Assembly (NCBI RefSeq): GCF_900102875.1
Contig: NZ_FNGH01000002.1
Coordinates: 124,001 to 188,000 of the forward strand
Direction of reading: 5' to 3'
From: Franzmannia pantelleriensis
GTDB taxonomy: Bacteria > Pseudomonadota > Gammaproteobacteria > Pseudomonadales > Halomonadaceae
DNA length: 64,000 bases
The position numbers and the translations under genes were made by a program. Below are positions 34,795-36,826 of the stretch, piece after piece (position 1 is the stretch's first letter; every line of letters starts with the position of its first letter). The notes under the pieces were generated by a model. It was not told where the DNA came from. It did not search any database and saw nothing but the letters and a program-made list of their open reading frames with translations.

Positions 34795-35787
34795 TCAGGC
34801 GCTGAGCGGGGTAGGCTCCGGCACCAGACTGAGCGCGTCATCGAACACCCGCAGGCAGGCGCCGTCGAGGTGGCCGTGCTCGGAGAGATGGCGACGGAAG
34901 CGACGCCCCCCCGGCTGGCCCTGAAACAGCCCCAGCAGGTGGCGGGTGATGTGATTGAGCTTGGCACCTTTTTCCAGGCGACGGGCGATATAGGGGCGAA
35001 ACGCCCGCGCAGCGGCGTGGCGACTGGTCGCCGGGCCGGCCATGCCATACAGCGTCTCGTCCACGCCGGCCAGTAGCCAGGGGTTCTGATACGCCTCGCG
35101 GCCGACCATCACGCTATCCACTCGATCCAGATGCTCCCGGCACTCATCGAGCGTCTTGATACCGCCGTTGATGCCGATATGCAGCGCGGGATGCTGCTGT
35201 TTCAGGCGCTGCACCCGCGGGTAGTTGAGCGGCGGCACGTCGCGATTCTCCTTGGGTGAAAGCCCCTGCAGCCAGGCCTTGCGCGCATGCACGATAAACA
35301 CCTCGCAGCCGGCGTCCGCTACCGTGGCAATAAAGCGCGCCAGGTCTGCGTCCTCGTCCTGATCGTCGATACCGATGCGGCACTTGACCGTAACCGGAAT
35401 CGACACCGCTGACTGCATCGCCTTGATCGCCGCCGCTACTCGCTCGGGATATGCCATCAGGCAGGCGCCAATCAGGTTGTTCTGCACCCGATCGCTGGGA
35501 CAGCCGACGTTGAGATTGACCTCATCGTACCCCCATGTCTCGGCGATCGCCGCACACTCGGCAAGCTCGCCGGGGTCGCTGCCGCCCAGTTGCAGTGCCA
35601 GCGGGTGCTCGACCTTATCGAAGCCGAGGAAGCGCTCCCGCGGGCTGCCATGGATCAGCGCGCCGGTGGTGACCATTTCGGTATACAGCAGCGCGCGACG
35701 CGTCAGCGTCCTGGCAAACGCGCGGTAGTCGCGGGTAGTCCAATCCATCATCGGCGCGACGGAGAAGGTTCGGTCTAGCTTGGGCAT
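34795..35787 (-). CDS. dusA: tRNA-dihydrouridine(20/20a) synthase
   Basis: This 330-residue FMN enzyme reduces uridine 20/20a in the D-loop of tRNAs. FMN and active-site marks are SVAPMMDWTTRD at the N-terminus, NLNVGCPSDRV with the catalytic cysteine near residue 97, and TVKCRIGIDD with the conserved lysine. DusA-specific HARKAWLQGLSPKENR is present. The start at 35787 is the only reasonable ATG. Its 5' end is a known attachment site for some integrative elements, but here it is intact and no integrase is adjacent. Confidence 0.95.
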   Translation of the reverse strand: MPKLDRTFSVAPMMDWTTRDYRAFARTLTRRALLYTEMVTTGALIHGSPRERFLGFDKVEHPLALQLGGSDPGELAECAAIAETWGYDEVNLNVGCPSDRVQNNLIGACLMAYPERVAAAIKAMQSAVSIPVTVKCRIGIDDQDEDADLARFIATVADAGCEVFIVHARKAWLQGLSPKENRDVPPLNYPRVQRLKQQHPALHIGINGGIKTLDECREHLDRVDSVMVGREAYQNPWLLAGVDETLYGMAGPATSRHAAARAFRPYIARRLEKGAKLNHITRHLLGLFQGQPGGRRFRRHLSEHGHLDGACLRVFDDALSLVPEPTPLSA

Positions 35788-35969
35788 CGGGCGTCACGGG
35801 TTGGGCAGAAAAGGGAGGGCATTCTATCAAGACGAGCCGATGGCTTACCATCTATGGCGACCGTCGTGCCCGTTGTCTTTCATCTCACGGCGTGGCGTAC
35901 TTCGATGCGAACCAATGAAAAATTAGTGTACTAGGCATTGATATGTGTATAGGAGTGGTATAGCTTTAA

Positions 35970-36108
35970 TGGCGTGACACATGGGTCACACCTTGTGACC
36001 CGAGCGGCTTACTCTCCCCGTCTGGAGTCGTTCGGGCCACGATGCAGCTCCGGCTGCATTTCTCGACAGAGAAGTCCGTTGCTAGCCCCCGTCCCGGGGG
36101 CTTTTTTT
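35970..36108 (+). ncRNA. Candidate structured small RNA with intrinsic terminator
   Basis: The 451-base interval 35788-36238 lacks a gene but holds a dense set of helices. GTGAC (35974) can pair with GTCAC (35985), or GGGTCAC (35983-35989) with GTGACCC (35995-36001). CCCGAGCGGCT (35999-36009) pairs with AGTCGTTCGGG (36026-36036), leaving a C-rich loop. ATGCAGC (36042-36048) pairs with GCTGCAT (36053-36059). A GC-rich stem at 36084-36102 followed by seven T ends it. A -35-like TTGATA is at 35938 and weak -10 sequences lie near 35960, so the 5' end is approximate. It matches no RNA family I recognise. It could instead be a leader regulating the lipoprotein gene. Confidence 0.6.
36084..36108 (+). 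terminator. Strong Rho-independent terminator
   Basis: AGCCCCC (36084-36090) pairs with GGGGGCT (36096-36102), and TTTTTTT runs through 36108. It is orientated to stop rightward transcription, 130 bases before the lipoprotein start, and no gene on the plus strand precedes it since dusA is on the minus strand. It therefore most likely ends the structured RNA candidate. Confidence 0.85.
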
Positions 36109-36238
36109 GTGAAGATCCTCTCCCATCTGAACCCGGCGTGGCCGTGGCTATCCAAGTCAGCGATATCAGAGTGAGGCGATGTGCCCCGCACCCGACAGGT
36201 GGTAGGGTTTGATCAGGATGCACAGTGGGAGGAAACGC

Positions 36239-36826
36239 ATGACGCTGCAGCGGGCTTTTCAGGTAATGGGTGTGGTGCTGGTAGGGCTCATGCTACTCGG
36301 GTGTGGCAGTGATGGCGAAACCGAGGACGACGAGCCTGCGGGTGAAGAGCAGCAAGCCATGGGAGCCAGCGTGGATGACCAGCAGAGTGAAGCTACGTCT
36401 GACGTGCCAGTGATGAGCGAGGCGGTGGTGATCGAGACCGAGGCACGTCTGGATAATCGCCGTCAGATGCAGGTCAGCGGTACGACCAATCTGCCCGAGG
36501 GGGCGCAGTTGCAGGTGATGGTGGAGCGCGAGTCGAGCCGGGTGCGCTGGCGCTCGCGTGTGAATGTGAGCGCTGAGGGTGATTTCGAGGCTGGCCCATT
36601 CGGCCCCGGCAGCGGCCTACCAGACGGCATGTACCTGATTGAGGTCAGTATGCCGCCGGCCAATGTACAGCCTGCATCGGTGCGTGAACGCATCGGCGAG
36701 CGCGGTGAGCATCTCGAGGGGGAGCTGGTGCGGGAGGCCAACCATGGCCTCGGCTATGAAGTGCGCTATCGCTCACAGATCGAATTGGGTGACCAGCGGA
36801 GTATTCGCTATATCGATGGCAGCTAG
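36239..36826 (+). CDS. Hypothetical lipoprotein
   Basis: This 195-residue predicted lipoprotein starts at 36239 with GGGAGG upstream; a frame from 36209 is rejected. The signal peptide has a lipobox LLGCGSD with the lipidated cysteine near residue 22, then an acidic low-complexity linker (GETEDDEPAGEEQ). The remaining part, about 120 residues, is predicted by eye to be beta-rich (DNRRQMQVSGTTNLPEGAQL, VRWRSRVNVSAEGDF), resembling an extracellular Ig-like fold. I do not recognise a named family. It follows the structured RNA candidate and is convergent with the XRE gene. Confidence 0.7.
   Translation: MTLQRAFQVMGVVLVGLMLLGCGSDGETEDDEPAGEEQQAMGASVDDQQSEATSDVPVMSEAVVIETEARLDNRRQMQVSGTTNLPEGAQLQVMVERESSRVRWRSRVNVSAEGDFEAGPFGPGSGLPDGMYLIEVSMPPANVQPASVRERIGERGEHLEGELVREANHGLGYEVRYRSQIELGDQRSIRYIDGS

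Follow-up and report, generated by a model that had tools for sequence, protein, structure and literature searches.

A structured RNA in the gap between dusA and a lipoprotein gene

We analyzed a 64,000-nucleotide stretch of the Franzmannia pantelleriensis genome (hereafter, the window; coordinates are those of the window and refer to its (+) strand), in which dusA (34795-35787, minus strand; DusA by NCBIfam) is followed by a gap and then by a (+)-strand gene for a 195-amino acid lipoprotein (36239-36826), for which a Pfam search gave no family. Within this gap lies a putative small RNA (sRNA) of about 137 nt at 35972-36108 (+), as judged from a promoter-like sequence and the onset of conservation, which set its start, and from the z score of its fold and the score of a covariance model (R2, described below). 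Its placement agrees with the first-pass annotation of this DNA, which had put a structured RNA between dusA on the other strand and a lipoprotein gene about 130 bases on: the measured distance from the U tract to the lipoprotein start at 36239 is 131 bases. The lipoprotein gene is a neighbor of the sRNA and probably not part of its transcription unit. A scan with 4227 Rfam families returned none at the gathering score in the whole window or in six related loci, and the lax-threshold matches in 35850-36260 were all below the cut-off. Together with the strong fold described next, this shows that the earlier description of an unrecognized structured RNA of no known family was right.

The segment 35970-36108 folds at -66.7 kcal/mol, compared to -47.3 ± 3.9 kcal/mol for 200 dinucleotide shuffles (z = -5.0; 0 of 200 as good). 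Three relatives fold into a similar shape, with z scores of -3.8, -5.7, and -3.2; of 200 shuffles each, 0, 0, and 1, respectively, folded equally well. The fold begins with a 5' hairpin, GUGAC(ACAUGG)GUCAC, at 35974-35989, which is followed by a main hairpin at 35993-36042 (94.6% of the alignment cells paired; 3 of 14 pairs changed on both sides) and a third hairpin at 36044-36057 (all lettered cells paired; one-sided changes in 3 of its 8 pairs, two-sided changes in none). It closes with an intrinsic terminator and U7 tail at 36084-36108. The terminator, already called strong in the first pass, was borne out: its stem (36084-36102) and U tract form the sole terminator-like site in 35400-36800 and are kept in all five species of the genus that we compared, namely, the window's own genome (G000) and its four congeners (G001 to G004). 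Likewise, the C-rich loop that had been pointed out at 36010-36025 is indeed exposed: the loop ACUCUCCCCGUCUG of the main hairpin (36011-36024) is unpaired in the window fold and holds at most one inner pair in the relatives. It is a possible second pairing site.

Two overlapping helices near the 5' end had been described as mutually exclusive. Both are present in the sequence, where GUGAC (35974-35978) can pair with GUCAC (35985-35989) or, alternatively, GUCACA (35985-35990) with UGUGAC (35994-35999), but they are not balanced in energy. Imposing the second helix, which has five pairs, raises the energy by 2.1, 5.8, 9.0, and 3.3 kcal/mol in G000, G001, G003, and G002, respectively, and the terminator stem stays closed in these forced folds. 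Because of this cost, the data do not support two alternative folds in balance, and we rejected a switch built on them.

Promoter-like sequence, conservation, and covariation

Upstream of the RNA, we assigned by inspection a -35 element, TTGATA (35938-35943), and a -10 region, TATAGCTT (35959-35966), which can be read as TATAGC with a spacer of 15 or as TAGCTT with a spacer of 17. Among the four RNA-bearing species, the -10 region reads TATAGCTTTA, TATAGATTTA (twice), and TATAAATTTA. A simple consensus scan listed no sigma-70 promoter. The mean pairwise identity among the four species rises steeply at these elements: it is 0.39 far upstream and 0.47 just before the promoter, and it reaches 0.86 in the -35 element, 0.66 in the spacer, and 0.83 in the -10 region. 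Within the RNA, the segment 35972-35997 is identical in all four species (1.00), followed by 0.815 for the main hairpin, 0.96 for its loop, and 0.84 for the terminator. Beyond the RNA, identity falls to 0.60 and then amounts to 0.88 in the promoter and leader of the lipoprotein gene. Because the full conservation begins where a promoter at 35938-35966 would initiate, we set the start at about 35972, which would make the invariant segment 35972-35997, our proposed seed, the very 5' end of the transcript.

In the alignment of the four sequences, 97.0% of the cells are paired, a level that 0 of 500 shuffles reach and that compares to 37 to 45% for slid controls. The covariation score was equaled by 6 of 500 shuffles. 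Compensatory changes in homologs, which had been named as a check on the RNA, were found at three pairs, all located in the main hairpin (G-U / C-G / U-A; C-G / G-C; G-C / A-U), with the count of such double-changed pairs being equaled by 74 of 500 shuffles in an alignment of only four related sequences. The 5' stem is invariant across the four and is therefore neutral on its own pairing. An encoded peptide was rejected: gaps of one and two bases from alignment column 47 onward shift the frames between species, so that the RNA does not code for protein.

Distribution of the RNA within the Halomonadaceae

Among 97 relatives, a DNA search detected the RNA in four, which belong to a single genus. 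The whole RNA is present in four of the five genus genomes, and the fifth (G004) keeps only its terminator end. We then have the covariance model R2, which was built from the same four sequences that it scores highest and was run over 275 family genomes: it gave 165 bits at the window, 155 to 168 bits over the four, and 33.5 bits in G004. Weak matches (E = 1e-4 to 0.09) occurred in 18 of the 270 other family genomes. We rejected these extra-genus matches as homologs, since the 11 that were examined by eye resemble other terminators or a different sRNA. The covariance search across the Halomonadaceae that the first-pass annotation had proposed hence yielded homologs within the genus and, with loci of 11 of the 18 weak-match genomes examined, no convincing one in the 270 other genomes. 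The exact 24-base 5' core is present in the records of Halomonas salipaludis WRN001 and Halomonas sp. ML-15, the former of which has been reclassified into Franzmannia (PMC10690426). The genus of the five genomes is accordingly taken to be Franzmannia, to which the RNA appears to be restricted. A mobile or repeated element was considered and rejected: there is one full copy per genome, plasmids gave no match to the RNA, and viral contigs gave no exact match to the 24-base 5' core.

One species of the genus lives without the RNA. Its genome, G004, displays an altered -35 element and a partial -10 element followed directly by the terminator region, with the body of the RNA absent. By inspection, its flanks are nearest to those of G003, for which reason we read G004 as a recent deletion of the RNA body. 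In two loci of another genus where dusA adjoins the lipoprotein gene (L024 and L033), the two are separated by a short gap that, by inspection, holds no such RNA; the sRNA gene therefore seems to have been born in the Franzmannia line. It looks like a young gene, held by four species and already deleted in a fifth.

Preference of the 5' segment for translation initiation regions

For 250 sampled genes each in G000 and G001, we compared the duplex energies of parts of the sRNA at initiation regions to those inside the same genes. For the first 28 nt, the difference (initiation minus coding) was -0.88 kcal/mol in G000 and -0.48 kcal/mol in G001, while composition shuffles gave +1.50 ± 0.82 and +2.26 ± 0.73 kcal/mol, respectively, with 0 of 150 shuffles as low in either genome. 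When 160 28-mers with comparable GC content were drawn at random from the genome, 3 were as good in G000, 0 in G001, and 0 in both. The 3' linker displayed no preference for initiation regions (87 and 83 of 150 shuffles as good). The preference of the 5' segment arises because of its layout, in which CCUU complements the core AAGG of the Shine-Dalgarno (SD) sequence and CAU, eight bases earlier, complements AUG, i.e., the two are set at normal SD spacing.

The first-pass annotation had not singled out this invariant 5' end and had instead proposed that the C-rich loop could pair with ribosome-binding sites. It is the 5' end that clearly prefers initiation regions, with 0 of 150 shuffles as low in both genomes. 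For the loop, the conservation stood, and a candidate, flgF, was found (see below), but overall it favored initiation regions only marginally: of 150 shuffles, 16 in G000 and 15 in G001 were as good, or 17 and 4 when judged by the top ten pairings.

yggX as a candidate target of the 5' segment

The 5' hairpin contains a palindrome, GTGACNCATGNGTCAC, which, allowing up to one mismatch, recurs outside the sRNA once in G000, twice in G002, once in G003, and not in G001; G004 has none at all. The recurrence in G000 and one of those in G002 coincide with the start of a 90-amino acid gene that follows a mutY-like gene and that is identified as yggX, encoding an oxidative damage protection / Fe(2+) trafficking protein, by PF04362 and NF003817. 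None of the one-mismatch palindrome matches lies at the yggX start in G001, G003, or G004. In G000 and G002, 22 pairs join the yggX start UCGCAAGGAGUGACCCAUGAGUCA to the 5' end of the sRNA; they fall into runs of 8, 10, and 4 (with one G-U) that are separated by two A.A mismatches, and the pairing spans both the SD and the AUG. Out of 27 aligned positions, 23 are paired in G000 and G002, 22 with the mRNAs of G003 and G004, and 21 in G001.

The duplex energies with the G000 5' end follow the same order: -37.8 kcal/mol in G000 and G002, -32.7 in G003 and G004, and -28.6 in G001. In the comparisons to shuffles and sampled regions given below, yggX stands at -31.8 kcal/mol in G003 and at -27.7 kcal/mol in G001. 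Across 24 genomes of other genera, the yggX starts (of which three, in G010, G011, and G065, were extrapolated positions and not start codons) gave -10.0 to -25.0 kcal/mol with the G000 5' end. Shuffled 5' ends were as good on yggX in 0 (G000), 0 (G002), 3 (G003), and 21 (G001) of 2000 cases. For comparison to other genes of G000, we used 1092 initiation regions from 1.27 Mb, about 29% of the genome, with crude gene calls; as the gene caller had missed yggX in this sample, it was compared separately. None of the 1092 regions was as strong as yggX in duplex energy, and with folding costs included, yggX came second of 1093, one region being slightly stronger. In G001, 24 of 691 sampled regions were as strong as yggX by duplex energy and 74 of 691 with folding costs, and in G003, the net gain after folding costs was only -6.8 kcal/mol.

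Two further observations temper the case for yggX. Over 45,974 windows covering 464 kb of G000, the best energy besides that of the sRNA's own antisense was -36.7 kcal/mol, so that energies near that of yggX arise by chance. Furthermore, G004, which is without the RNA, has the same yggX start as G003, and hence there was no co-loss of the site with the RNA. A cross-species ranking of targets comprised only three same-start ortholog pairs in the sampled stretches, and from scans for the complements of two parts of the 5' segment, yggX and one further locus were examined. We conclude that yggX is a possible target of the sRNA 5' end, a candidate to be held tentatively and more doubtful than probable.

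In the literature on YggX and small RNA, none of the titles among the matches listed concerned an sRNA acting on yggX. In a report on NfiS of Pseudomonas stutzeri expressed in Escherichia coli, the part that mentions yggX names it only among the up-going SoxR-dependent genes (PMC6761216). Among the sampled regions of G000, the strongest duplex after yggX (-36.5 kcal/mol) was formed at the start GAGGTGGGCCCATGAGTCAC of a 573-amino acid gene (L233; contig C18, at about 255199), which is possibly a further target of the 5' segment.

The C-rich loop and flgF

Searching five genomes for the 12-base complement of the loop with one mismatch allowed, we found 69 matches, compared to 75 for the reversed pattern. 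Out of 30 loci that were fetched, 2 were the sRNA itself; the other 28, as well as further matches in G000, lay mostly inside genes. One match in G000 coincides with the start codon region of a gene resembling a regulator (L123), and a site within coding sequence recurs in G001 and G004 (L121 and L120). The start match that recurs is the SD of flgF, in G001 (L131) and G002 (L321), with FlgF identified by NCBIfam on the G000 protein. This SD reads CGGGGAGAGTG in G001 and G002 and CGGGGAGACTG in G000 (L297; contig C16, at about 191082), and flgF of G003 gave no match in the loop-complement scan. With the sRNA loop of the respective species, flgF forms a duplex of -25.6 kcal/mol in G001, where 1 of 691 regions was as strong, of -21.1 kcal/mol in G002, which 10 of the 1092 G000 regions matched in strength, and of -17.2 kcal/mol in G000, where 64 of 1092 regions were as strong. 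The flgF pairing is thus strongest in G001, the species in which the yggX pairing is weakest, and the window's species does not favor flgF.

We also considered the mRNA of the neighboring lipoprotein as a target and rejected it for both parts of the sRNA. Its duplex with the 5' segment (-17.9 kcal/mol) equals the mean of the sampled initiation regions, 85 of 1092 of which are as low or lower with folding costs, and its duplex with the loop (-12.5 kcal/mol) is matched or surpassed by 339 of 1092.

Alternative explanations of the locus

The first-pass annotation had left open whether the RNA is a free sRNA or a leader acting on the lipoprotein gene. As a 5' leader or attenuator, it would start at 35972 and let alternative folds choose between termination at 36102 and read-through. 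The geometry fits such an arrangement, as the two share a strand, the terminator lies 131 bases ahead of the gene, the neighborhood is kept in all five genus genomes, and overlapping helices exist. The lipoprotein gene, which we found in 120 of 201 family genomes searched, however, has a promoter element of its own past the sRNA terminator: an extended -10 like sequence, TGGTAGGGT (36200-36208), of the form TGNTARNNT. Of 30 fetched loci, 25 (all but L018, L020, L021, L030, and L036) have such an element 34 to 41 bases ahead of the presumed start codon, compared to 2% in shuffled regions, and it is present in all five genus genomes, as well as in species without the RNA. A leader is unlikely for this reason, and while a cis leader implies a downstream gene that needs read-through, the sequences at these 25 loci point to a gene that does not. 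In addition, the costly alternative helix sits at the 5' end, far from a terminator stem that stays closed, and one species has lost the body of the RNA, yet retained both terminator and lipoprotein gene. We therefore regard a leader as quite improbable, and the sRNA half of the earlier proposal as the better backed one, by promoter-like sequence, terminator, some covariation, and the natural deletion of the body. The invariance of the 5' end could alternatively reflect DNA rather than RNA, with the palindrome GTGACACATGGGTCAC being an operator just past the start of a transcript that is merely regulated. This near-perfect inverted repeat (35974-35989) is invariant in four species, and its stem shows no covariation, both in line with an operator. 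Against it, each RNA-holding genome has one exact site and G004 none, with zero to two one-mismatch sites per genome and no sign of a regulon; the invariance runs beyond the repeat, up to 35997; and the preference for initiation regions is a property at the RNA level. An operator thus appears very improbable.

Two further explanations keep the RNA but move its function away from the 5' end. Several stem-loops in a compact, stable molecule might suggest a protein-binding sponge, for example for CsrA/RsmA, yet the multiple GGA motifs in loops that mark sponges of the RsmY/RsmZ type are missing, with counts of 1, 0, 0, and 0 across the four species. On this count, we rejected a CsrA sponge, and a protein-binding role in general would be a most improbable one. 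Alternatively, the sRNA could act mainly via its C-rich loop as an anti-Shine-Dalgarno element, in the manner of sX13 or GsrN, with the 5' hairpin serving only as a stabilizer. The loop is exposed and 0.96 identical, its complement lies at the flgF SD in G001 and G002, the top-ten pairings in G001 show an excess at initiation regions (4 of 150 shuffles as good), and precedents have been described. On the other hand, flgF pairs more weakly in the window's genome and has no match in G003, the mean preference for initiation regions is marginal, complement matches are no commoner than those of the reversed control, and it is the 5' segment that is conserved more than the loop. We consider a mainly loop-based action unlikely. 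The data are best accounted for by what is probably a free-standing sRNA gene of about 137 nt, confined to one Halomonadaceae genus, most likely acting in trans by base pairing and with its 5' end as the main seed.

Proposed mode of action and relation to known sRNAs

Such an sRNA would be transcribed from its own promoter (35938-35966) and end at the intrinsic terminator (36084-36108), lying beside, and not in, the lipoprotein transcript. Its U7 end could bind Hfq, the gene of which is present in the genome. The 5' hairpin would open on an mRNA whose SD-spacer-AUG is complementary to the seed GCGUGACACAUGGGUCACACCUUGUG, and the resulting pairing would cover the SD and the start codon and so block ribosome entry and translation, with yggX the best candidate found for the 5' end. 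The C-rich loop may add contacts or serve a second set of targets, of which flgF is one candidate. We infer the transcription of the sRNA, its use of Hfq, repression, and the identity of its targets.

At the sequence level, the locus displays what is expected of a trans-encoded sRNA: promoter-like and terminator sequences of its own, a non-coding body, and a conserved seed that prefers initiation regions. Enterobacterial Hfq-dependent sRNAs that use a 5' seed, such as RybB and MicC, likewise have their most conserved part at the 5' end, their own promoter, and a U-rich terminator tail. In contrast to this type, the seed here is held in a hairpin and spans SD and AUG, and the link to Hfq is putative.

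With its exposed and conserved loop, the RNA also resembles sRNAs with C-rich loops such as sX13 and GsrN, a kind rather than a homologous family. sX13 of Xanthomonas is described as a highly structured RNA of 115 nt with exposed C-rich loops and no long single-stranded targeting region, in which it is like the present RNA, with homology between the two judged by Rfam only; the mRNAs that it represses have G-rich motifs near their translation starts (PMC3771888). It differs in having three C-rich loops and a 5' region that is dispensable for virulence (PMC3771888), whereas here there is one loop and an invariant 5' end that appears to be the chief functional part. GsrN of Caulobacter shares a cytosine-rich loop, the most conserved part in its family, and has BLASTn homologs in a single bacterial family only (PMC5869019). 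GsrN is, however, typically found near general stress response genes and carries its C-rich loop at the 5' end (PMC5869019), while the present RNA lies between dusA and a lipoprotein gene, has an invariant 5' hairpin, and, by inspection, a sigma-70-like promoter.

In the literature on Halomonas and small, non-coding, or regulatory RNA and Hfq, no title or opening of an abstract among the matches listed describes this RNA. We class it as a new sRNA family that belongs to a known kind, the trans-acting base-pairing sRNAs, with candidate targets. The Halomonadaceae are a family with industrial hosts in which small RNAs seem little described, and the locus provides a compact system, with testable targets, in which to study the origin of sRNA genes, the fixation of their seeds, and their loss. 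Going further, one may speculate that this genus-specific sRNA, its 5' end being the antisense of a complete ribosome-binding site, originated between dusA and the lipoprotein gene in the ancestor of Franzmannia and represses yggX and a few further genes with an AAGG-N8-AUG start, its loop taking on a second set (flgF). This fuller scenario is rather improbable as a whole; if true, it would tie one new RNA to both oxidative-damage protection and motility in a halophile.

Other elements in related genomes

A second conserved sRNA candidate was observed in another Halomonadaceae genus (g11; L048 and L080-L099), with promoter-like TTGGCA and TATACT, a hairpin whose loop has the form CACCCC(C)UC, the sequence CUGCAGUGAGCCAAGCCCUUU, and a terminator. 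In the two loci examined by eye (L048 and L050), it lies beside a motB/OmpA-like gene. Matches that extend beyond the terminator were found in 67 g11 genomes; 17 of 20 fetched loci could be aligned, with 4 of 25 pairs double-changed. Rfam gave no match on the g11 loci L048 and L049. Like the window sRNA, this candidate looks autonomous, with promoter-like sequence, a C-rich loop, and a similar terminator, and it receives a weak R2 score. It differs in its surroundings and sequence, and none of the five Franzmannia genomes has a match to it.

In four sister genomes of the window's genus (L070, L071, L069, and L074), a conserved, structured stretch that includes a C-rich hairpin and a strong terminator lies shortly before a start reading ATGATCACACTC or ATGATTACACTC; it is perhaps an attenuator or an sRNA. 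Three further loci (L068, L052, and L057) have CTCTCTCGACAGCC and GCTGTTGTT in common ahead of a terminator, and the L068 copy, judged by eye, follows an eda-like gene.

In G002 and G003, the open frames that precede the sRNA in the loci examined did not include dusA. The upstream regions of L014 and L031 contain a copy of the dusA 5' end adjoining foreign sequence, which suggests that mobile elements have inserted in dusA at these two loci; integrases specific to dusA have been described (PMC4482086).
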